DNA of 64,000 nucleotides from Brachyspira innocens ATCC 29796 (GTDB taxonomy: Bacteria; Spirochaetota; Brachyspiria; Brachyspirales; Brachyspiraceae): positions 1 through 64,000 of the forward strand of contig NZ_ARQI01000123.1 in the NCBI RefSeq assembly GCF_000384655.1, in the 5' to 3' direction. Position 1 is the stretch's first letter. Every line of letters starts with the position of its first letter. Both the position numbers and the translations under genes were made by a program. The notes under the pieces were generated by a model, which saw only the letters and a list, made by a program, of their open reading frames with translations, ran no database searches and was not told where the DNA came from. Shown piece after piece: positions 12,699 to 53,174 of the stretch.

Positions 12699-14285
12699 AT
12701 GAAAAATACTAAATTAAGAATTGAAAAAATTATTAGTCTGCTTTCAGATGGACTTTATGAAAGAGAAGAAATAGTTGCATTAACGTTTTTAAGTGCCGTA
12801 GCAGGAAAGCCAGTATTTTTATACGGTCCTCCGGGTACAGCTAAAAGTTTTATTGCAAAGAGAGTATCATCAGCTTTTAGAGAATCAAAATACTTCGGAT
12901 ATTTAATGCAAAGATTCAGTACACCAGAGGATATATTCGGACCTATTAGTTTGGAAGAGTTAAAAAATGACAGATATATTAGAAAGATAGAAGGATATCT
13001 TCCAGACTGTGATTTTGCATTCTTAGATGAAATTTGGAAAAGTACTCCTGCAATACTTAATACGCTTTTAACCATAATAAATGAAAGAGTTTTTAAAAAC
13101 GGATATAAAGAAATCAAAGTTCCATTAAAAGCATTGATTTCTGCAAGCAATGAAACACCGCCAGAAGGTCAGGGGCTTGAAGCATTGTATGACAGATTTA
13201 TCATGCGTTTGATGGTAAGACCTATGAAAAATAAGGATAATTTTGAAAAGATACTTCAAAATACTGAAATTAATTCATATATACAAATTGATGAAGAGAT
13301 TAAAATATCATCAGAAGAATGGATAAAAATAAGAGAAGAAGTTAATAATATAAAACTTTCAAAAATAGTTATTGATATAATTCACAGAATTAAACTCTCT
13401 ATAGAAAAGTTTAATGAAGATAACAGAGATATTGCTATATATGTATCAGACAGAAGATGGCAGCATATATCATACTTGTTAAAAACAGCAGCGTACTTAA
13501 ATGATAAAGATGAGGCAGATATTTACGAGGCTTTTTTAATAGAGAATTGTTTATGGAGTTTGGAGGAACATATTGAAGTTGTAGGTACTATAGTTGAAAA
13601 TGCAGTAAGAGAGTCATATAGTTTTAATAATGAACATATTAATGAATGGAGAGAGAGTTTTAAGAGTGTTCAGGAAAATATAGATAATGAGTTTTATGAA
13701 TTAGAAAAAACTTATGATACAGAAAATATTGATGATAAACCGCATATTGCGAAAACATTAAATATAAATATAGATGAATACGGAAATAAAGGCGAGACTA
13801 TAATATATATACCAATAAAACAGCTAGGTAAAAAAGGTTATTTTTATCCTTTGGATTTATCAAGAAATCAGACAAAAAAATTCAGATGCAGTTTTAATGG
13901 TACTGATAAATGCACTGTAGAAATAAATTCTGCTACTTCTGTTAATGGTTTTGTATCAAATAAATTATCAAAAAATTATGAGTTTTTAGAAGAGTTTGAA
14001 CCAGACTTTTATATGAAAAAAATCGGATATAAAAAACAGGAAAAAGAAAAAAAATCTTCATATATAAAACTTCTTAATTCATTAATATCAAGTATTGAAA
14101 ATATAATTATAAACTTAAAAAATGATTATAATGCAAATAAAAAAAATACTAAAAGTATATTTATTTCAGAGGAAAAATTTAATATTTTTGATGATATATT
14201 TAATTCTTATATAGATAATCTTGAAAGCGAAAAATTAGACGCTCAAAGAGTAAAAAGCGAAATAGAAAATCATGAAACAATTTAA
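12699..14285 (+). CDS. ravA: MoxR-family AAA+ ATPase, RavA-like
   Basis: An AAA+ ATPase of 528 residues that should form a ring and act with the VWA partner encoded next. Walker A is GPPGTAKS (43-50), Walker B is FAFLDEIWKS near 105-114, and a sensor I region follows with KALISASNE. The IYVSDRRWQH segment near 250 matches the sensor II/arginine region of RavA. A beta-rich patch near 365-420 may correspond to the RavA LARA insertion. The C-terminal 90 residues are charged and helical. RavA of E. coli works with ViaA and affects respiratory complexes and aminoglycoside uptake; that role is not established here. It overlaps viaA by 14 bp, so translation is probably coupled. Confidence 0.88.
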   Translation: MKNTKLRIEKIISLLSDGLYEREEIVALTFLSAVAGKPVFLYGPPGTAKSFIAKRVSSAFRESKYFGYLMQRFSTPEDIFGPISLEELKNDRYIRKIEGYLPDCDFAFLDEIWKSTPAILNTLLTIINERVFKNGYKEIKVPLKALISASNETPPEGQGLEALYDRFIMRLMVRPMKNKDNFEKILQNTEINSYIQIDEEIKISSEEWIKIREEVNNIKLSKIVIDIIHRIKLSIEKFNEDNRDIAIYVSDRRWQHISYLLKTAAYLNDKDEADIYEAFLIENCLWSLEEHIEVVGTIVENAVRESYSFNNEHINEWRESFKSVQENIDNEFYELEKTYDTENIDDKPHIAKTLNINIDEYGNKGETIIYIPIKQLGKKGYFYPLDLSRNQTKKFRCSFNGTDKCTVEINSATSVNGFVSNKLSKNYEFLEEFEPDFYMKKIGYKKQEKEKKSSYIKLLNSLISSIENIIINLKNDYNANKKNTKSIFISEEKFNIFDDIFNSYIDNLESEKLDAQRVKSEIENHETI

Positions 14286-15708
14286 TAATGATTCATATAG
14301 AAACGAAATAAAAAAAACTGAAAGTATGGCAAGAGGAGTTTTTTACGGCTCTTTTGAAAACATAAATGAAAAAAGACTTGAGGAAGAGCTTGAAGTAAAA
14401 ATAACAAAATGGAAAAAAGATTTAAATACTTTTACCAACGAAAATAATCCTTATGATGAAAATAAAACAGAATTAGAAATATCATTAAAAAAATTAAAAG
14501 TCTTAAAAAATAAAAATATAAAAACTACAAAAGAAGATATTATAAATGATTTAAATAGTTTTAGTATTTTATCAGATGATAGCAGTGTAGAGTTTTGGAA
14601 AGATAAGCTGCATAATTCTGAGAGTTTAAATATTAATTTAAACATAATAAAAAATAATATTTTATCTTCATGGCAGAAAACTTATAATAAAAAAAATAAT
14701 GAATGGCTTGTTCATACAGTTAAAGAAAAAAGGGATAAATTTATTTCAGATATAGAATCTTGGATTAGTTTGATTAAAAAATTAAGATACATGTCAAATA
14801 TATTAAGAATAAAAATAGGAGTATTATGGGATTTTAGGGTAGGGGAGCTTGAAGAAAATGATATATCTTTATTAGAGAGATGGGTTGAGTTTATAAATAA
14901 ATATAAAAAAGAAATAGAAACTATATGCGACAGTATTGGAAAAAGAGTTGATATTGAAAAGGCTTTAAAAAATATAGAGTTTAAAAATACTTATAGTTAT
15001 ACAAATAAAAAGATAAGCTCTAAAGAGGAGATAGTTGGTATATATTTTGCTAAAGATATAGAAAATGTGGTTCCAGAAGAGCTTTCACTTTTGTGTAGCG
15101 AAGATAGCGAAAAATTATTTAAGCTTAAATATATAGAAAATAGGCTTATGTGTTTTGATAAGAGTGCTTATGTATTTAATGAACATGATTTTGACATTGT
15201 TAAAGCTGGATATAAAGAAGGCAAAGGGGATATGATTATATGTATAGACACAAGCGGATCTATGAAAGGAACTAGTGAGTATATTGCAAAAGCTATAATG
15301 TTTAAAATGGTAATGCAGGCTCTATCTGAGAATAGGAATGCTTATCTTATAAACTTCAGCACTGAAATATATACTTGCAGATTTACTAAAAATAATGGTA
15401 TTGAAGATTTAATAAAGTTTTTAAAATTAAGCTATCATGGAGGCTCTGATATATATAAAGCACTTTATGAGGCAAACAGAGTAATGAACACATCTTCTTT
15501 CAAGAATGCTGATGTATTAGTATTATCTGATTTTATTATGGAAGATATGCCAGACAATTTAGTGAAAATATGTTCAAAGCAAAGAAATAACGGAAACAAA
15601 TTTTTTGCTGTATCTATTGGTAAGTTTCCGTTTGGTTACTCTTATAAAAAAGTATTTAATAAACATTGGATATTTGATATTGACAGCGGCATAAAAGAGA
15701 TTTATTAA
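14272..15708 (+). CDS. viaA: VWA-domain protein, ViaA-like partner of the AAA+ ATPase
   Basis: A 478-residue protein with a helical N-terminal half of about 300 residues and a C-terminal von Willebrand A domain. The metal-ion-dependent adhesion site is visible: DTSGSM from residue 326, the later Thr/Gly region YHGGSDIYKALYEA, and LSDFIMEDMP. MoxR ATPases are usually paired with such VWA proteins and load or remodel targets through the metal site. The gene begins within the last codons of ravA. It ends 17 bp from the stop of the convergent murI. There is no signal peptide or membrane segment, so the pair is probably cytosolic or peripherally membrane-bound. Confidence 0.87.
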   Translation: MKQFNNDSYRNEIKKTESMARGVFYGSFENINEKRLEEELEVKITKWKKDLNTFTNENNPYDENKTELEISLKKLKVLKNKNIKTTKEDIINDLNSFSILSDDSSVEFWKDKLHNSESLNINLNIIKNNILSSWQKTYNKKNNEWLVHTVKEKRDKFISDIESWISLIKKLRYMSNILRIKIGVLWDFRVGELEENDISLLERWVEFINKYKKEIETICDSIGKRVDIEKALKNIEFKNTYSYTNKKISSKEEIVGIYFAKDIENVVPEELSLLCSEDSEKLFKLKYIENRLMCFDKSAYVFNEHDFDIVKAGYKEGKGDMIICIDTSGSMKGTSEYIAKAIMFKMVMQALSENRNAYLINFSTEIYTCRFTKNNGIEDLIKFLKLSYHGGSDIYKALYEANRVMNTSSFKNADVLVLSDFIMEDMPDNLVKICSKQRNNGNKFFAVSIGKFPFGYSYKKVFNKHWIFDIDSGIKEIY

Positions 15709-44320: not shown

Positions 44321-45139
44321 TTACATGCTTTCATGTATGATTTGTTTTATTTTATACAAAGCCTTAAGAATTTCTTTTCTATGCAAATTATTTTTAATAG
44401 AAAACAAAACTTTAATATCATTAATCTCAGAAAGCGACATATAATCATCACTAGCTATCTTTTCATAAATATAATCTATCGCTTTTAATATAGCCTCATC
44501 ATAATCATTAAAGTTAAAATATTCATTTGGGAGATTCCATACAAGAGCTTCTATGATGTTTGGAGATAACTCATTCATAGATTTAATTTCACTAGAAAAA
44601 GTCAAAAATATATATTTAAATATTTTTATTAGATTAATAAAATTAGTTCCGCATTCCTGTTCTTTCTTATCAAAATTTTTATTATCAAGTTTAGGATAAA
44701 ATATCTCATTTGTACCATTAGAATTGGTAATCATAGCTCCTTCAATATTATTTTCATCTACATTTTTAAAAGAGGGTAGGAGCATTATTTTTTCATTTTC
44801 ATACTCTAATATCAAATAGTATGATATTTCATTAATTTTAGTTTGATAGTTGTCATTTTTTTTAATTAAATCCAATATAGAAAGTTTGAATTTTCTAGTA
44901 TCTGTAACACCATCAGTATCATTTAACATTATATATACATTAAGATATTCCATATAGTTTATATCTGTACGGTTTCTTTTTGCACCAGATGCTAAAATTG
45001 ATATATTATTAAATGATTTGTGTGCGGATATTAATTTTGATATTAAATCTAATTTTAAATCTATTTTATAATATGGGTAGATAGTAGAATTACCTACCCA
45101 TTTATTTATATATTCATATAAATCTATATTTTGTTTCAT
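44321..45139 (-). CDS. Nucleotidyltransferase-fold (CD-NTase/OAS-like) protein with degenerate active site
   Basis: A 272-residue protein that reads like the stand-alone CD-NTase/OAS-type nucleotidyltransferases: an N-terminal helical start with a WVGNS element, a signature-like loop ASGAKRNRT (50-58), a KxF(K) helix region NLIKIFKYI near 169-177, and the C-terminal block SPNIIEALVWNLPNEYFN (192-209) with SEINDIKVLF, typical of the family. Active enzymes have GS, then D-x-D and a third Asp. Here the loop reads GA (52-53), D-x-D appears as Y65-L66-N67, and the third Asp (in a DxVP context) appears as M119 in IMLLPSF. It is therefore probably catalytically dead. It starts 5 bp after the cheB stop. 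Alignment by eye; no search was possible. Confidence 0.72.
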   Translation of the reverse strand: MKQNIDLYEYINKWVGNSTIYPYYKIDLKLDLISKLISAHKSFNNISILASGAKRNRTDINYMEYLNVYIMLNDTDGVTDTRKFKLSILDLIKKNDNYQTKINEISYYLILEYENEKIMLLPSFKNVDENNIEGAMITNSNGTNEIFYPKLDNKNFDKKEQECGTNFINLIKIFKYIFLTFSSEIKSMNELSPNIIEALVWNLPNEYFNFNDYDEAILKAIDYIYEKIASDDYMSLSEINDIKVLFSIKNNLHRKEILKALYKIKQIIHESM

Positions 45140-45144
45140 AAGAG

Positions 45145-46278
45145 TTATACTCTTTTCAAAGCAGCAGCAAGTATTTTATCTAAAGGCAGAACTTCATCTA
45201 CTCCGCCTCTTGCTATAGCCTCTCTAGGCATACCAAATACAGTACAAGTTTCTTCATTTTGTGCGATATTGTATGCTCCTGCATCTTTCATTTCTTTCAT
45301 ACCATTGGCACCATCATCACCCATACCAGTAAGTATTATACCAATAGCTTTATTTTTAGCATATACGGCACCGCTTCTGAAAAGTACATCTACAGAAGGT
45401 TTATGTCTTGTAACAGGCTCTCCGTCTCTAACTTCTATAAAATATTTACCATTTTTTACTTTAATCATAGTATGCTTACCGCCGCGTGCTAAAACAGCTT
45501 GTCCTCTTCCTATACTCATTCCGTCTTCAGATTCAGCCACATCAATTTTCAATATGCTGTTTAATCTTTTAGCAAATGAAGTAGTAAAATGTTCAGGCAT
45601 ATGCTGAGTGATAACTATAGGGGGAGCTGAAGGAGTAACATTTTTAAGACATTCTATTAAAGCCTCAGTACCGCCTGTAGAAGAACCTATAAGAATAATT
45701 TTATCCATAGGAGTTTCTCTTGAAGGGGTAAGAGGAAGTATAATATCAGCAGTATTTTTTTGGTAAACTTTAAATCCTGCAGTTTTAGGAGCCTCTAAAC
45801 TAATAGGTGTTCTTTCTGCTGGGGAAGCTGTTTCAGTCGGCATATTAACACCATGTTTTCTATAGAATTTAGCTCTGTTTGCATAGGCATTTTTTATTTT
45901 TTCAACCAAATCAGTAGCCAATTCTTCAACGCCATCTCTAACATTGGCAGATGGTTTTATAACATAATCAAAAGCACCTATATTTAATGCATCCAAAGCT
46001 AATTCTCTATGTTTATCTAACAAAGAACTAAACATTATTACAGGGATAGGGTTATTAAGCATAAGTTTTTTAAGATAAGTAATACCATCCATTTCTGGCA
46101 TTTCTATATCTAAAGTAATAATGTCTGGTTTAAGATTTTTGACCTTACTTTCAGCTAGAATTGGATTTGCAGCAGTACCAACCATTTCCAAAGCAGGATC
46201 CGAGTTAACAATTTTTGTTAGCAATTGTCTAATTAATGCGCTATCATCAATAGCTAATACTTTAATTTTTGTAGCCAT
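45145..46278 (-). CDS. cheB: Chemotaxis response regulator protein-glutamate methylesterase
   Basis: CheB removes methyl groups from, or deamidates, chemoreceptors. The 377-residue protein has an N-terminal receiver domain (phospho-acceptor Asp57 in TLDIEMPEMDG; K109 in YVIKPSAN), a linker of about 60 residues, and the methylesterase domain. Its triad is Ser200 (LIGSSTGGTEAL), His226 (VITQHMPEHF) and an Asp in GMGDDGANGMKEM. The enzyme is complete. It lies 27 bp after cheD and 5 bp before the nucleotidyltransferase-like gene. Confidence 0.96.
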   Translation of the reverse strand: MATKIKVLAIDDSALIRQLLTKIVNSDPALEMVGTAANPILAESKVKNLKPDIITLDIEMPEMDGITYLKKLMLNNPIPVIMFSSLLDKHRELALDALNIGAFDYVIKPSANVRDGVEELATDLVEKIKNAYANRAKFYRKHGVNMPTETASPAERTPISLEAPKTAGFKVYQKNTADIILPLTPSRETPMDKIILIGSSTGGTEALIECLKNVTPSAPPIVITQHMPEHFTTSFAKRLNSILKIDVAESEDGMSIGRGQAVLARGGKHTMIKVKNGKYFIEVRDGEPVTRHKPSVDVLFRSGAVYAKNKAIGIILTGMGDDGANGMKEMKDAGAYNIAQNEETCTVFGMPREAIARGGVDEVLPLDKILAAALKRV

Positions 46279-46305: not shown

Positions 46306-46899
46306 TTAAAACAATGTGATGTCCGATTTTTCTTCAAGTTTATGCTGTAAGTTTTTAGAGTATTTAATTTCTTGCTCTGCTGAGAACTCTTTAGTTTTAC
46401 CTTCTAGTTTTTTCATAAGCACTCTATTTTCAGTATTAAAGAAGAATACTTTTCTAGGCCAAGAACCTCCTACATCTTCACTAACTATAGGTATTTTTTC
46501 ATCAGCCAAGAACTTTTTAGCAAATTGTATATTTTTATCAGGTACTTGGAGAATGTTGCTGGTCATACCAGATAGAACATGTCCTCCGCCGAATATTTTG
46601 GCTGTAAGATTTTCTTTCTTACCACCTAATTTAATAATTTCGTTTATCAGAACCTCCATAGCAAAAACACCGTATCTAGTATTGTTATAATCTTCTGCTG
46701 GATTTTCCCATTCTCTCATTTCTGGAAGCATGAAGTGGTTCATACCTCCGAATTTTAATTTATTTTCAAAGAGACAAACAGATATACAACTGCCTAAAAC
46801 GGTTTTAATTACAGCGGGTTCTTTTGAAGCATAATATCCACCTATATATATAGTTATTCTTTTAAAATTACTATTAGCCGCTGCTGGAAAATCAATCAT
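46306..46899 (-). CDS. cheD: Chemoreceptor glutamine deamidase
   Basis: CheD deamidates glutamines of chemoreceptors and in some bacteria works with CheC. The 197-residue protein has the catalytic Cys38 in VLGSCISVCL and His55 in GGMNHFMLPEM, spaced as in the family, and FGGGHVLSGM. The C-terminal 40 residues are extra and charged (KTKEFSAEQEIKYSKNLQHK). No cheC gene is present in this cluster. Confidence 0.95.
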   Translation of the reverse strand: MIDFPAAANSNFKRITIYIGGYYASKEPAVIKTVLGSCISVCLFENKLKFGGMNHFMLPEMREWENPAEDYNNTRYGVFAMEVLINEIIKLGGKKENLTAKIFGGGHVLSGMTSNILQVPDKNIQFAKKFLADEKIPIVSEDVGGSWPRKVFFFNTENRVLMKKLEGKTKEFSAEQEIKYSKNLQHKLEEKSDITLF

Positions 46900-46914: not shown

Positions 46915-47766
46915 TTAAATCTTTTTATAAATATTACTAGACACATATTTAAATTTATCAGATACACCAAAAAGTGTTTCCGAGTGTCCTATAAATACCA
47001 AGCCATCTTCTTTTAAATATCTATGGAATTTATTAAATAATTCCTTTTGAAATTCTTTATCAAAATAAATAATAACATTTCTGCAAAAAATCAAATCGAA
47101 CTGAGTATGTATATCAAAATCTTCATCTTTAAAATTTAACTGTCTGAAAAATAAATTCTTTTGTAATATGTCTTTTACTTTATAAAGGCCTTCTTTATCC
47201 CCAGTACCTTTTAAAAAATATTTTCTTAAAATATTAGGCTGTATTGGTTCAACTGATTCTTCTTTATAAATACCTGCACGTCCATGAGCTAATACATTGG
47301 TATCTATATCACTTGCTAATACTTTTATATCATATCTATCATAATTAGAGCCGAAATATTCATGTAGTGTCATTTGTATAGTGTAAGGCTCTTCTCCAGT
47401 TGAACAAGCTGCTGACCATATTCTAAGATTTTTTACTTTTCCTTCCTTAAACTTTTTCTCCCACTCTGGAAGGAAATTACTTTTCATATATTCAAAATGT
47501 TTATTTTCTCTAAAGAAATCCGTTTTATTCGTAGTAACTGCATTAACAAAATTTGTCAATTCTTCATCTTTTGCATTTTTTACAAAATCTATGTATTCTC
47601 TAAAAGAATCCATATGTAAAGCTCTAAGTCTTTTACTAAGTCTAGAAGTAACTAAAGCCCTTTTATGATTAGTCATTTGTATACGAGTCTTATCATAAAT
47701 AATTTTAACTAATTCATTAAACTCAGCATCAGTTAAAGCGGGCATATTAGCATTCATATCATCCAT
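46915..47766 (-). CDS. cheR: Chemotaxis protein methyltransferase
   Basis: CheR methylates receptor glutamates with S-adenosylmethionine. The 283-residue length is standard. The N-terminal helical domain carries KRALVTSRLSKRLRAL, and the SAM-binding domain carries NKTDFFRENKHFEYM, IWSAACSTGEEPYTIQ, VLASDIDTNVLAHG and FDLIFCRNVIIYFD. It has no TPR tail. Gap to cheW upstream is 23 bp and to cheD downstream 15 bp. Confidence 0.96.
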   Translation of the reverse strand: MDDMNANMPALTDAEFNELVKIIYDKTRIQMTNHKRALVTSRLSKRLRALHMDSFREYIDFVKNAKDEELTNFVNAVTTNKTDFFRENKHFEYMKSNFLPEWEKKFKEGKVKNLRIWSAACSTGEEPYTIQMTLHEYFGSNYDRYDIKVLASDIDTNVLAHGRAGIYKEESVEPIQPNILRKYFLKGTGDKEGLYKVKDILQKNLFFRQLNFKDEDFDIHTQFDLIFCRNVIIYFDKEFQKELFNKFHRYLKEDGLVFIGHSETLFGVSDKFKYVSSNIYKKI

Positions 47767-47789: not shown

Positions 47790-48320
47790 TTATACTGTTT
47801 TATTTTCTCCGTCATTAGATTTGATGATTTCATCTATTGGAAGAACCATAATAATTTTATTTTCCAATCTAATGACATTAGAAATTTGAAGTCCCCTCAT
47901 ATTATCAATAGGGGTTTCGGTCATCTGGCTTTCATAAACAGTTATAACATCACTTACCATATCTGCTAATATTCCGAATTTTCTATTAGTTGTAGATATT
48001 ACTATTATAACATCATCTTCAATAGAATGATCATCTCTTCTGGCCAAACCAAATCTTATTCTTATATCAACAATATGAAGTATATTACCCCTCAAATTCA
48101 TCAAACCTCTCATATATTTAGGGCTTCCTGGTACAGGAGTAATATTAGTAACACCAACAATGCCATCAATACTCAAAACATCAAGAGCATATTCTTCATT
48201 GTCAATTTTAAATACTAAGAATTGCTGACTTGGTTCAGTAGAAATATTTTCTTCATGATCCAAAGCTGTACCTCCAACCTGAGGTATATTAGCAGCATTT
48301 ATTTTTTGATTATCTAACAT
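47790..48320 (-). CDS. cheW: Chemotaxis coupling protein
   Basis: CheW links receptors to the kinase CheA. The 176-residue SH3-like protein shows FLVFKIDNEEYALDVLSIDG, TPVPGSPKYMRGLMNLRG and ILHIVDIRIRFGL, the usual CheW core, then FGILADMVSDVITV. An N-terminal extension of about 30 residues precedes the core. It follows cheA by 11 bp. Confidence 0.95.
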   Translation of the reverse strand: MLDNQKINAANIPQVGGTALDHEENISTEPSQQFLVFKIDNEEYALDVLSIDGIVGVTNITPVPGSPKYMRGLMNLRGNILHIVDIRIRFGLARRDDHSIEDDVIIVISTTNRKFGILADMVSDVITVYESQMTETPIDNMRGLQISNVIRLENKIIMVLPIDEIIKSNDGENKTV

Positions 48321-48331
48321 ATTACAATCCT

Positions 48332-50491
48332 TTATTTTACGCCATTGTTTATTTTGCCTTGTAAAGACATATTAACTAACCCTTGTATATCTATAATAAG
48401 AGCTATTCTTCCGTCTCCAAGAATAGTACCGCCAGCTATGCCAGCATGTTTATCGAATGCAGAATCCAAAGATTTAATAACTACCTGCTGCTGATCCAAA
48501 AGTTCATCAACAAATATAGCACATCTTCTATATCCTGCTTCTACAACAACAACTATACCGTCCTCTATATTTTCAACCTGAGTATCTATTTCAAATACTT
48601 TATGAAGTCTTATTAAAGGCAAGTATTCTTCTCTTATTTTTATCATCTCACCTTTACCTTCAAAAGGTTTTACCTGTTCATTTTTTACTTTTATTTGTTC
48701 TATAATAGATATAAGAGGCATTATGTATATTTGAGCACCTAAAGCAAAAGTAATACCTTCGATAATAGCCAATGTTAAAGGAAGTTTTACTATAAAAGTA
48801 CTGCCTTTACCTTCTACAGATTTTATTTCTATTTTACCTTTCATCTTTTCAACATTAGCTCTAACAACGTCCATACCAACACCTCTTCCAGATATGTCAG
48901 TAATTTTATCAGCAGTTGAAACGCCAGGTGCGAATATAGTTCTATATATTTCTATATCAGAATATTTACCATCTTTAGATAGAAGACCTCTTTCTACAGC
49001 TTTTTTGAATATTTTTTCTTTATTTAATCCATTTCCATCATCGGATACTTCTATAACAACATGTCCTTCTTGGTGTGCTGCTGACATTGTTATAGTACCA
49101 TATTCTGGTTTTCCTCTTGCTATTCTCTCTTCTTTAGTTTTTTCTATTCCATGGTCCATAGAATTTCTTATCATGTGTTTAAGAGGGTCAGATAACTGTT
49201 CAAGCATGTTTTTATCTATTTCAGTAGTTTCTCCCTTTAGAACTAATTTAACTTCTTTATTTAATTCCAAGTTCAAATCTCTTACATATCTATGGAACTG
49301 ATTGAATATAGGGCCAATAGGCATCATCCTAATATTCATAACTTCTTCCTGTATTTGTCTTGAAGTTCTATCCATAGAGCTAACAGCTTCTTTTAATCCG
49401 TTATCTATATCTAAACTTTGAGTAAGCTGCATTATTCTTGACTGAGCTATAACAAGCTCCCCAATTAAGTTCATCAAACTGTCAAGTTTTCTTGTATCAA
49501 CCCTAACTGTTGAAGGTGCTTGAACTTTTGCTGCTTTATGCACTGCTGCAGCTGGCTGATTATTGTTCGCAGGGGCATTATTATTAGCAGTTTCTGCAGG
49601 TTTAGCTTCAGTTTTAGGAGCTTCTTCTGCTTTAGGTGCTTCTTCAGTCTTAGCAGGAGCAGCTTCTGCAGGTTTAGCTTCATCATCATCTTTAATATCT
49701 GCTTTTGTATTTACGATATTAATATCATTGTCGTCTATTACAAATAAGAAAATGTTTTGCACCTGTTCATCTGGAGCATTAGTATCAAAATCTAAAGAAA
49801 ACTGGGTATAACAAACATAAGGATCTTCAAGATTTAAAATAGTCGGCAAATTATTACATTCTATTTTTAAATTACTAATAGTACCTATGGCTCTAAGGTC
49901 ATTTAAAAACATAAGAGGGTCTATACCATTATCAAAAATAGTAGCTTTAAATCCCATATCAATATGGAAAGAATTAGAACCGCTGCTTCCAGATGCTGTT
50001 TCTGACGACTTTTCTTCAGATTTAGGAGTTTCTGCAGATTTTTCCTCTGCTTTAGGAGCTTCTGCAGGTTTTGGTGCAGGAGCCGCTGCTGCAGGATCAT
50101 TTCCATCAGCTATTGCTTTAATTTTAGCTTTTAATGAATCTATATTGGTAACACCATCTGTTTCACTTTTTCCATCTACAATATTTTGCAGCATAAGTTT
50201 AACAGTATCTAAAAACTCAAGAAGTACTGTTATCATTTGCGGTGTTACATCTAATTTACCGCTTCTAACTTTTTCTAACAAATTTTCAGCAACGTGGTTT
50301 AATTCACTCATAGTTGTGAAACCTACAGTACCTGCTGAAGATTTTAGAGTATGGGCACTTCTGAATATTTTATTCAAAAGATCTTCATCGCTTTTATTAT
50401 CCTCTAATAAAACTAAATCATTTTCTAAACCTTCTACAATTTCTTTAGCTTCACTTAAGAATATGGAAATAAATTCATCACTATCAAACAT
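48332..50491 (-). CDS. cheA: Chemotaxis histidine kinase
   Basis: CheA autophosphorylates and passes the phosphate to CheY and CheB. The 719-residue protein has HPt at 1-105 (phospho-His47, in RSAHTLKSSAGTVGF), a long Ala/Pro/Glu-rich linker near 135-170, a CheY-binding-like region near 175-265, a second low-complexity linker near 270-330, a dimerisation domain, the HATPase domain (HMIRNSMDHGIE; SDDGNGLNKEKI; ISGRGVGMDVV), and a CheW-like regulatory domain from about 580. The linkers code for Pro-Ala-Glu-Ala-type repeats, which create long but spurious frames on the opposite strand. Catalytic boxes are intact. Confidence 0.97.
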   Translation of the reverse strand: MFDSDEFISIFLSEAKEIVEGLENDLVLLEDNKSDEDLLNKIFRSAHTLKSSAGTVGFTTMSELNHVAENLLEKVRSGKLDVTPQMITVLLEFLDTVKLMLQNIVDGKSETDGVTNIDSLKAKIKAIADGNDPAAAAPAPKPAEAPKAEEKSAETPKSEEKSSETASGSSGSNSFHIDMGFKATIFDNGIDPLMFLNDLRAIGTISNLKIECNNLPTILNLEDPYVCYTQFSLDFDTNAPDEQVQNIFLFVIDDNDINIVNTKADIKDDDEAKPAEAAPAKTEEAPKAEEAPKTEAKPAETANNNAPANNNQPAAAVHKAAKVQAPSTVRVDTRKLDSLMNLIGELVIAQSRIMQLTQSLDIDNGLKEAVSSMDRTSRQIQEEVMNIRMMPIGPIFNQFHRYVRDLNLELNKEVKLVLKGETTEIDKNMLEQLSDPLKHMIRNSMDHGIEKTKEERIARGKPEYGTITMSAAHQEGHVVIEVSDDGNGLNKEKIFKKAVERGLLSKDGKYSDIEIYRTIFAPGVSTADKITDISGRGVGMDVVRANVEKMKGKIEIKSVEGKGSTFIVKLPLTLAIIEGITFALGAQIYIMPLISIIEQIKVKNEQVKPFEGKGEMIKIREEYLPLIRLHKVFEIDTQVENIEDGIVVVVEAGYRRCAIFVDELLDQQQVVIKSLDSAFDKHAGIAGGTILGDGRIALIIDIQGLVNMSLQGKINNGVK

Positions 50492-50553: not shown

Positions 50554-50922
50554 CTAGTTTAAAAAACGTTTAACAACGTCCAAAAGTTGGGTTGGGTTAA
50601 ATGGCTTTACTAGCCAACCGCTAGCTCCTGCAGCCTTACCCTCCATTTTTTTCTCATCTTGAGATTCTGTTGTAAGCATAAGAATAGGGGTATATTTATG
50701 TTGATCTACCTGTCTTACATGCTTAATAAACTCTATACCGTCCATTTTAGGCATATTAAGGTCAGTTATTATCATATCAACATTTGGGGTTTTACCTAGA
50801 ACCTCTAATCCTGTAGTACCATCATCTGCAGACACTACAGTATAACTGCCCTTTTTTAAGGTATATTCAACAGATGCTCTAGCTGTATTTGAATCGTCTA
50901 CAATTAGTATTGTTTTAGCCAT
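50554..50922 (-). CDS. cheY: Chemotaxis response regulator CheY
   Basis: A single receiver domain of 122 residues. Acidic pocket D9/D10 (LIVDDSNTARA), phospho-acceptor D54 (IITDLNMPKMDG), switch Thr in LMLTTES and Lys in WLVKPFNPTQ are all in place. Phospho-CheY is expected to act on the flagellar switch. It lies between the STAS and cheA genes. Confidence 0.95.
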   Translation of the reverse strand: MAKTILIVDDSNTARASVEYTLKKGSYTVVSADDGTTGLEVLGKTPNVDMIITDLNMPKMDGIEFIKHVRQVDQHKYTPILMLTTESQDEKKMEGKAAGASGWLVKPFNPTQLLDVVKRFLN

Positions 50923-50954: not shown

Positions 50955-51218
50955 TCAATTATTTTTATCGTTAATTATATTTAAATACTCTACAAATAAA
51001 TTATCCATGCCTTCTACTATAAGGTTTTTTTGATTTTTAGCAAGCTCTTTTTTCATAGCATACAGTATCTGCAGACCTGCCAAATCAATATGTGCTGGAC
51101 CTTCACAATTAAACTTTACAGTAATATCTTCGTTATAATTTGCACTTTTAATGACATTCTTAAAATATTTACTCATAGTTCTTATATTAAGATTGTCACT
51201 TATTTCTATAACTGCCAT
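50955..51218 (-). CDS. STAS-domain protein of the chemotaxis operon
   Basis: An 87-residue STAS protein. The domain's key loop normally reads D-(S/T)-A/S-G-L; here it is IDLAGLQIL (residues 43-51), so the phosphorylatable Ser/Thr is replaced by Leu. The hydrophobic strand pattern and the C-terminal LIVEGMDNLFVEYLNI are otherwise normal. STAS proteins in chemotaxis clusters are of unclear function; phosphorylation by a kinase seems unlikely for this one. It is the second gene of the operon, 24 bp after the receptor-like gene. Confidence 0.82.
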   Translation of the reverse strand: MAVIEISDNLNIRTMSKYFKNVIKSANYNEDITVKFNCEGPAHIDLAGLQILYAMKKELAKNQKNLIVEGMDNLFVEYLNIINDKNN

Positions 51219-51242: not shown

Positions 51243-53174
51243 TTAAAACATAGTAAAATCACCGCTGTCTGCACCTACATCTATATTTATATCGACATTA
51301 GGTGCTTCTTCTCCAGACAAAATACTGTTGGCTATAGCTCTTTCTTTCTTAATCGTATAAGAATTTACTATATCCAAATATTTATCACTTTCTATTTTCC
51401 AGTTTTCTATACCCAATAATTTATAATATTCATTTTTCTTATTTCTTATAACATTTCTCATGCTATTAAATATTTCTATTATTTCATTAATCTTTGTAAG
51501 CAGGGTACTCAAAGAACTTAAATCTATTAAAGTTTTATCTATAAGTCCGAATAATTCATCAGCATAACTATCAAGTCTTTTTATGTTATTATTAATAATA
51601 TATTTAGACTCGTCTAAACGTTTGCTCACACTGTCTGTCATAGATTCTATAAATGTATGTTCAGTAGACTGCTGATTAATATTAGACTTAAATTTATTAA
51701 TAGAACTAAATATAGCTGCCTTAATATTATGGAATTGCTCCAAACATGCATCTACTGTATCAGTTATATTAGTAGCTATAGATTCAACACTCTCTATAGA
51801 AAATGTCTGAGAATTATTAAATATATCGCTGTTTTTTTCAAGCTCTATTTTAGCCAAAAAGTTAATCGAGTTAAAGGTTTTGGCTATATTTTTAGTTTCT
51901 AAGAACATACTTTCCAATTCTTCTATGGAATCAATAATTGCTATATTACTGTCGGATATTCTATATTTATTAGTTAAAAACAATTTAAAGTTTTCTAAAT
52001 AAAGTTTGATAAATCCCATATATTCATTAAATAATGATTCTGAAACCGTAAATGGAAATTCTGATTTTCCTGTCTCGCCTCCAATCATATATTCAACTAT
52101 TGTAGTTCTGTCTGATGTTATATCAAGCAAAGCATCTTTTAAACCTTTAAGACTCTTGTATATATCTGAGTTTGTTAAACTTATTTCTTCATGAATTGAT
52201 TTAAAGTTTTCTATAATCAAAGTTAAAACAACATCATCAAAGGTTAGCAAATCTAATAATTTATGCTCTAAAGTTTGGTTCTCTGTTTTCTCTAAATCTT
52301 CAGCATTCATAGTCTCTACTTGAGAACCGTAATAATCTATAAAATTTCTATTTTCATAAACTATAGAATTTATTGATTCAACTATATGTTCTGTCTGCTG
52401 CCTTACAATATCCTCTCTTGGAAGAACCATCATTACTTCAAATATAAAATCATAAGTATTATCAACTCTTGAAATAATATTTGATATTATGTTAGAAAAT
52501 ACAGCAAAAGAGTTAACCATATTGTTATGCTCTTTATCAAGCTGTTCACGCATAATAGTAAAGTTCTGTCTTTGTAATTCATTAGTTTTTAATATCTCTG
52601 TTTTAAATGATTCAAATCTTACAAATAATTCCTTACCAATTCTATTCATTTGGTCGGCCTGTTCATTTGAAGTTTCTGACATTTTTATGATGTTTTTAGA
52701 TATTTCTCCAAAAGCCTTACCGCCTGCACCATATTTAGAAGATATTATTATTGCATTTAATGAATATACCTTAATTTGGTCAGCAAGCATTCTTATTTGC
52801 TCTATAGAGTCCATTATATTACTGGTTTTACCTACATCTTCAACCAAAGAATCTGAAAGTTCATTATCTTGAGATATAAAATTCTGCATTCTATCAAATG
52901 ACAAAAAGAAATCTTCTTGGTTTTCTTCCAAATCATTTGAGAAGTTTTTTTCACCTTTCTCTTTATTAGTAAAATAAGAAAGCAAATTATTAGCTTTCTC
53001 ATTTTCATTTTTCATTTCTTGTTCTATCATAGGAAATTTTTCGCCGATAAAACTATATACTCTGCCAACTTCTTCCAAGAAAGAATGTATATCCTTAACT
53101 GTAGTTTCAAGAATGGCAGAATAATCTAAGATATCCTGACGTATGTTATTATCTATAATAGTAGATATTCCCAC
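51243..53174 (-). CDS. Soluble chemoreceptor-like coiled-coil protein heading the che operon
   Basis: A 643-residue, mostly helical protein without a signal peptide or membrane helix. Residues 124-168 resemble the signalling tip of methyl-accepting proteins in order and spacing (IEQIRMLADQIKVYSLNAII, SSKYGAGGKAFGEISKNIIK), but the conserved EAARAGE reads ISSKYGA, and other invariant residues differ. Long coiled coils extend on both sides, with a final acidic tail ending GDSGDFTMF-like. It may couple CheA to something other than a classical ligand. It starts with GTG 53174 behind an AGGAA site. A good promoter lies upstream. First gene of the nine-gene operon. Confidence 0.8.
   Translation of the reverse strand: MGISTIIDNNIRQDILDYSAILETTVKDIHSFLEEVGRVYSFIGEKFPMIEQEMKNENEKANNLLSYFTNKEKGEKNFSNDLEENQEDFFLSFDRMQNFISQDNELSDSLVEDVGKTSNIMDSIEQIRMLADQIKVYSLNAIIISSKYGAGGKAFGEISKNIIKMSETSNEQADQMNRIGKELFVRFESFKTEILKTNELQRQNFTIMREQLDKEHNNMVNSFAVFSNIISNIISRVDNTYDFIFEVMMVLPREDIVRQQTEHIVESINSIVYENRNFIDYYGSQVETMNAEDLEKTENQTLEHKLLDLLTFDDVVLTLIIENFKSIHEEISLTNSDIYKSLKGLKDALLDITSDRTTIVEYMIGGETGKSEFPFTVSESLFNEYMGFIKLYLENFKLFLTNKYRISDSNIAIIDSIEELESMFLETKNIAKTFNSINFLAKIELEKNSDIFNNSQTFSIESVESIATNITDTVDACLEQFHNIKAAIFSSINKFKSNINQQSTEHTFIESMTDSVSKRLDESKYIINNNIKRLDSYADELFGLIDKTLIDLSSLSTLLTKINEIIEIFNSMRNVIRNKKNEYYKLLGIENWKIESDKYLDIVNSYTIKKERAIANSILSGEEAPNVDINIDVGADSGDFTMF

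Follow-up and report, generated by a model that had tools for sequence, protein, structure and literature searches.

The window analysed here is a stretch of 64,000 nucleotides of Brachyspira innocens ATCC 29796 (contig NZ_ARQI01000123.1, positions 1 to 64,000), with a GC content of 28%; the source genome is 3.28 Mb in size. The window contains a chemotaxis (che) operon of nine same-strand genes, in the order MCP-like, STAS-like, CheY, CheA, CheW, CheR, CheD, CheB and, in ninth place, a gene here called pCDN, which starts 5 bp past the cheB stop codon (Table 1). The original prediction had placed the gene correctly, leaving out the strand, and had read it as a catalytically dead relative of the CD-NTase and OAS enzymes. 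The GC3 of pCDN (0.17) is the same as that of its neighbors. Beyond it lies a convergent gene for a type III glutamine synthetase (GSIII); no terminator-like site was detected in the gap past pCDN, a result of little weight in so AT-rich a region.

The other genes of the operon give standard Pfam matches, with two exceptions. The MCP-like gene, whose match stays under the cut-off, is present in all 29 genomes of the family; no strongly hydrophobic stretch was found in its product (maximum mean hydropathy 1.42), which may be a soluble receptor or an array component. The STAS-like ORF drew no match in a Pfam search, and its label is our own reading of the sequence. Elsewhere in the window (12699-15708, plus strand), an AAA-type ATPase gene is followed by a VWA-domain-like gene; judged by sequence only, the two resemble MoxR/RavA-ViaA pairs.

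Table 1. The che operon and the former active site of pCDN (positions in the window; residue numbers are those of pCDN unless LpCdnE is named)
Feature	Position	Strand	Remarks
Pseudo-CD-NTase CDS, pCDN	44321..45139	(-)	272 aa plus stop, ATG start
Lid 3 segment, residues 236-252 (LSEINDIKVLFSIKNNL)	44384..44434	(-)	(R/Q)xW of CdnE replaced by NN[L/I/M]; E238 kept
K175, equivalent of donor-phosphate lysine K201 of LpCdnE	44615..44617	(-)	Invariant
Lid 1/2 segment, residues 147-160 (FYPKLDNKNFDKKE)	44660..44701	(-)	Among the best conserved parts; mean entropy 0.13 vs 0.74 overall
M119, position of the third catalytic Asp	44783..44785	(-)	M/V/I/A/L among orthologues
Former phosphate loop and D-x-D, residues G52-N67 (GAKRNRTDINYMEYLN)	44939..44986	(-)	D-x-D reads Y65-L66-N67; E64 in place of the preceding Ser
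cheB, receiver plus methylesterase, directly upstream of pCDN	45145..46278	(-)	PF00072, PF01339
cheD	46306..46899	(-)	PF03975
cheR	46915..47766	(-)	PF01739
cheW	47790..48320	(-)	PF01584
cheA	48332..50491	(-)	Hpt, H-kinase_dim, HATPase, CheW domains
cheY	50554..50922	(-)	PF00072
Small STAS-like ORF, operon gene 2	50955..51218	(-)	87 aa; kept across family operons
MCP-signalling-like protein, operon gene 1	51243..53174	(-)	643 aa; PF00015 1.6e-5, under cut-off

On sequence profiles and predicted structure, pCDN is a divergent CD-NTase of clade E (CdnE), closer to the enzymes of CBASS than to OAS, which refines the earlier double label. As a Pfam search with pCDN gave no match, the assignment draws on PADLOC, on sub-threshold NCBIfam matches, on PDB profiles and on the fold. 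PADLOC oligonucleotide-cyclase models match the protein (up to 4.9e-18), mostly over residues 126-266; the single sequence matches EfCdnE in the PDB (6.4e-9); a profile built from 22 orthologues matches LpCdnE (1.7e-13), EfCdnE (1.8e-10, residues 16-251) and EmCdnE as well; and profile-profile comparison by hhalign with four active plasmid CdnE proteins gives E 2.6e-7 over columns 9-256. An AlphaFold2 model made from the Brachyspira rows alone (pLDDT 73.8, pTM 0.50) already put clade E CdnE at the top in Foldseek, with MiD49 (4woy) also among the matches. With three distant rows added, pLDDT rose to 80.9 and pTM to 0.77, and EfCdnE (7x4c) became the best match (4.2e-12, TM 0.80); the alignments with distant rows (A3 and A4) misplace the strand of the third Asp in those rows, and A4 nonetheless raised pTM from 0.50 to 0.77. 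Sequence profiles, profile-profile comparison and fold together rule out a chance resemblance. Matches to TPR proteins in the PDB were discarded as repeat-inflated, all concerning one stretch of 17-28 residues.

The clade E enzymes (LpCdnE, EfCdnE, ClCdnE and EmCdnE; PMC10442399), which are the best structural matches, share with pCDN the NTase plus helical domain fold, the G[SA] loop, the YP lid segment, the donor-phosphate lysine and an equivalent of E262; unlike them, the Brachyspira protein lacks the three metal-binding Asp residues, the base contacts, the (R/Q)xW motif and a CBASS effector, and it is encoded in a che operon. The comparison can be made residue by residue with LpCdnE, as the numbering of the loop coincides and the contact residues have been described (PMC10442399). 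Around the metals, D65 has become Y, D67 N, S64 E, and D139 any of M, V, I, A or L; among the base contacts, Q51 has become T or S, N173 F, Y or D, Y221 I or L, and W276 L, I or M. What is kept is G52, R55, T58, N59 (as N or D), K201 (K175 in pCDN) and E262 (E238). By this comparison pCDN has kept its phosphate loop and the donor-phosphate lysine, and has lost the metal site together with both base sites. The marks of cyclic di-pyrimidine CdnE enzymes are likewise absent in Brachyspira: (R/Q)xW reads NN[L/I/M], and the Asn of lid 1 reads F, Y or D.

The loss is shared by every intact orthologue of the genus. All 22 intact Brachyspira orthologues have Y-L-N at the D-x-D site (Y-L-S in one) and M, V, I, A or L at position 119, so that all three metal-binding Asp residues are lost throughout; G52, R55, N56, T58, E64 and Y65 are invariant. 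Three alignments agree in setting Y65-L66-N67 on D-x-D. The third position was originally assigned to M119, and this is upheld by an ungapped alignment in which an EN turn and a PxF motif are conserved, and by the model, in which residues 116-127 form a single unbroken strand; a register from hhalign that would make the invariant E116 the third Asp was rejected, as it needs a three-residue insertion inside that strand. One detail was true of part of the family: the GS motif ahead of the loop was said to have become GA, which is so in 12 orthologues, the other 10 having GS. As its residues read, pCDN is a pseudoenzyme that has lost its catalytic residues.

It is not a decaying one. Nei-Gojobori dN/dS over ten close pairs lies between 0.05 and 0.18 (0.01-0.04 for cheB), and the protein must on that account be functional; pCDN evolves faster than nearly all other genes of the operon, yet is clearly constrained. 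Pseudogene decay is rejected by these ratios together with the 22 intact frames, and the original description of a conserved pseudoenzyme is borne out. Within the protein, the segments lining the old cleft appear to be the best conserved parts: their columns have a mean entropy of 0.28 (0.74 for the protein as a whole), and no other of 272 circular shifts gives so low a value. The result is no more than suggestive, since the segments were chosen once the conserved blocks were already visible.

pCDN is present in 23 of 26 Brachyspira genomes, always directly behind cheB. The three Brachyspira genomes without it are G001, G003 and G019, and the two genomes of a second genus (g2) lack it too; all five retain the che operon, with cheB as its final gene as far as the loci show. 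As these members of the family do without the gene and keep the operon, pCDN must be accessory to chemotaxis. On the far side, GSIII is not adjacent in five B. pilosicoli-like genomes. In one further genome (G008), the orthologue (L075, 2017-2840) has a single-base deletion in a run of A near codon 29, which splits the frame; the rest of that gene has a dN/dS of 0.05, so the frameshift is either recent or a sequencing error, and the orthologue of the nearest relative (G022) is intact. A second copy in another genome (G020, contig C226, L035) is near-identical to that of G024 and is probably contamination, which is put at 7% for G020.

Among 393 sampled genomes of Spirochaetota, pCDN turned up outside Brachyspira only in G146, which represents a third genus of the family. 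There the frame next after cheB runs for 242 residues until the contig breaks off, and the C-terminus opens another contig; synteny with cheB, proposed as a check on the original prediction, thus holds wherever the gene exists. The prediction has with this withstood all three checks that could have refuted it: predicted fold, catalytic positions and synteny. The G146 copy is a much stronger match to the PADLOC model (7.6e-32) than the Brachyspira copies are, and it is dead in a different way: the first Asp is Pro and the third is Asn, while the second is kept. It also retains GS, the lid 1 Asn (IINYP) and the QxW motif (QKW). G146 and Brachyspira copies form one clade (support 99/95), on long branches, and on a tree of Che proteins the presence of pCDN takes two changes. 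With G146 as the outermost lineage, the pattern is most simply explained by one ancient acquisition and subsequent losses; the tree by itself would also accommodate independent gains at the same cheB junction.

The G146 copy also leads back to active relatives. The nearest of these are nucleotidyltransferases encoded on plasmids of Staphylococcus, Sporosarcina and Vibrio, each of whose genes is directly followed by the gene for a 2TM CBASS effector; these two-gene systems differ from pCDN in having an intact SDVD, a D at the third position and the effector gene directly downstream, and in being plasmid-borne. Judging by fold and context, the ancestor was probably the cyclase of a two-gene CBASS system of CdnE type. 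A viral origin was rejected: no relative appeared in scans of viral contigs (queries A1 and P0002) or in phages. On an archaeal plasmid (Halomarina; L142, 2554-4795), two nucleotidyltransferase genes adjoin, one of them CdnE-like, and a hypothetical gene follows.

The reading that best puts these elements together, to which we give about even credence, is that pCDN is a captured CBASS cyclase that has lost catalysis and now serves the chemotaxis pathway as an accessory protein. That is, a clade E CD-NTase would have been captured, probably from a two-gene CBASS system; it would have come to lie behind cheB in an ancestor of the Brachyspiraceae; there it would have lost catalysis and been retained as a co-expressed accessory of the pathway. 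The gene would be co-transcribed with the che genes, and the old cleft would still be a binding site. Its likeliest ligand carries phosphate and would be held by K175 and the G[AS]xRNxT[ND] loop, both of which are retained; a peptide of a Che protein is the alternative. Binding would then alter adaptation, through the activity of CheB, CheD or CheR, or the assembly of the array. Because pCDN adjoins cheB, the CheB/CheD adaptation branch is the first place to look, and we favor a binding protein of that branch with the old cleft as its site. We infer the role in chemotaxis from operon position alone, and the suggestion of a regulator of receptor methylation, made with the original prediction, is a guess from that position. 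Residues of CheB, CheD, CheR, CheW, CheA and the MCP-like protein were compared with the distribution of pCDN, and none tracks its presence beyond control partitions; no partner can therefore be named. CheB, CheD and CheR share operon and strand with pCDN and are unrelated to it in sequence and fold.

A more specific version, which can be put forward only tentatively, is that pCDN is a ligand-gated regulator of chemotaxis: its dead CdnE cleft would take up a nucleotide or another phosphate metabolite and, through CheB and CheD, set receptor methylation. A plain nucleotide sensor, the first of the roles originally proposed, is weakened for Brachyspira because base-contacting residues have been lost besides the metal ligands. 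For ATP binding by a CD-NTase with a dead D-x-D there is precedent in a CdnD (D62N/D64N) crystallised with ATP (PDB 6p8j, among the Foldseek matches). The same loss of base contacts would suit a pure adaptor, in which pCDN anchors CheB, CheD or CheR at the receptor array through protein-protein contacts, without a small ligand, much as MiD49 and MiD51 serve Drp1, and the conserved cleft segments are a protein-binding face. The structural match to MiD49 and the characterization of MiD51 as a scaffold pseudotransferase (PMC10211241) speak for it; a pure scaffold, however, need not keep several phosphate-loop positions and the lysine invariant, and the missing co-variation with Che proteins also counts against it, so that we regard it as doubtful.

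The link to chemotaxis being positional, pCDN might also be a mere passenger of the che transcript with an unrelated function, as its dispensability in five operon-keeping genomes and its evolution, faster than that of every Che gene in most pairs, would allow; yet the cheB junction has stayed unchanged over two genera and a long divergence, though what lies beyond pCDN varies, and this makes the idea improbable. Defense is a further candidate: among active enzymes, CBASS cyclases stand closest to pCDN, inactive OAS domains are RNA sensors in animals (human OASL, a dead NTase; PMC4446440), and a dead cyclase expressed with motility genes could be a phage sensor, a decoy or a guard. However, no CBASS effector lies beside pCDN, whose neighbors are cheB and the convergent GSIII gene; the Brachyspira genomes contain no further match to PADLOC model PDLC00801; with a pI of 5.0-6.0 the proteins are acidic, which makes RNA binding less likely; and a defense gene would not be expected to stay so stably at one locus. 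We consider a defense role very unlikely. Least likely of all is a changed chemistry, nucleotidyl or other transfer by other residues: the invariant acidic residues E64, E116 and D152 are left near the cleft, and SelO and SidJ are pseudoenzymes of other folds with new reactions, but NTase chemistry requires a two-metal Asp cluster, and no acid stands at any of the three catalytic positions in the preferred register.

In animals, cGAS and OAS are known to have catalytically dead relatives that have taken on new roles. OASL and MiD49/MiD51 share with pCDN the NTase fold, a broken catalytic triad and conservation, and have binding roles; they differ in being animal proteins of unrelated pathways, neither bacterial nor derived from CdnE. 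In the literature searched, no paper was found on a conserved bacterial dead relative of cGAS or OAS, nor one joining CD-NTase with pseudoenzyme or with Brachyspira; papers mentioning both CD-NTase and chemotaxis concern other subjects, to go by their titles and the beginnings of their abstracts. To our knowledge, pCDN belongs to no known class of chemotaxis component, as the original prediction had supposed, and the literature search turned up none of its type. In passages of two Brachyspira genome papers, the che cluster is listed without this gene; PMC7666581 assigns the Brachyspirae to the F7/F2 chemotaxis classes, possibly with an F1/F2 hybrid.

pCDN would then be a bacterial case of a dead cGAS/OAS relative, with an intermediate form preserved in a sister genus (G146) that lets one trace how the enzyme became a pseudoenzyme. 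In spirochaetes of the pig, bird and human gut, it also gives a signalling pathway that ranks among the best understood a ninth component yet to be explained; the fold of an anti-phage enzyme appears to have been re-used beside the machinery that controls swimming. If the ligand-gated version is true, the regulator is a domesticated immune cyclase, which would give swimming in the Brachyspiraceae a metabolic or infection-linked input not known from any chemotaxis class. A practical warning also follows: models built to find defense systems can flag genes like pCDN as CBASS cyclases.
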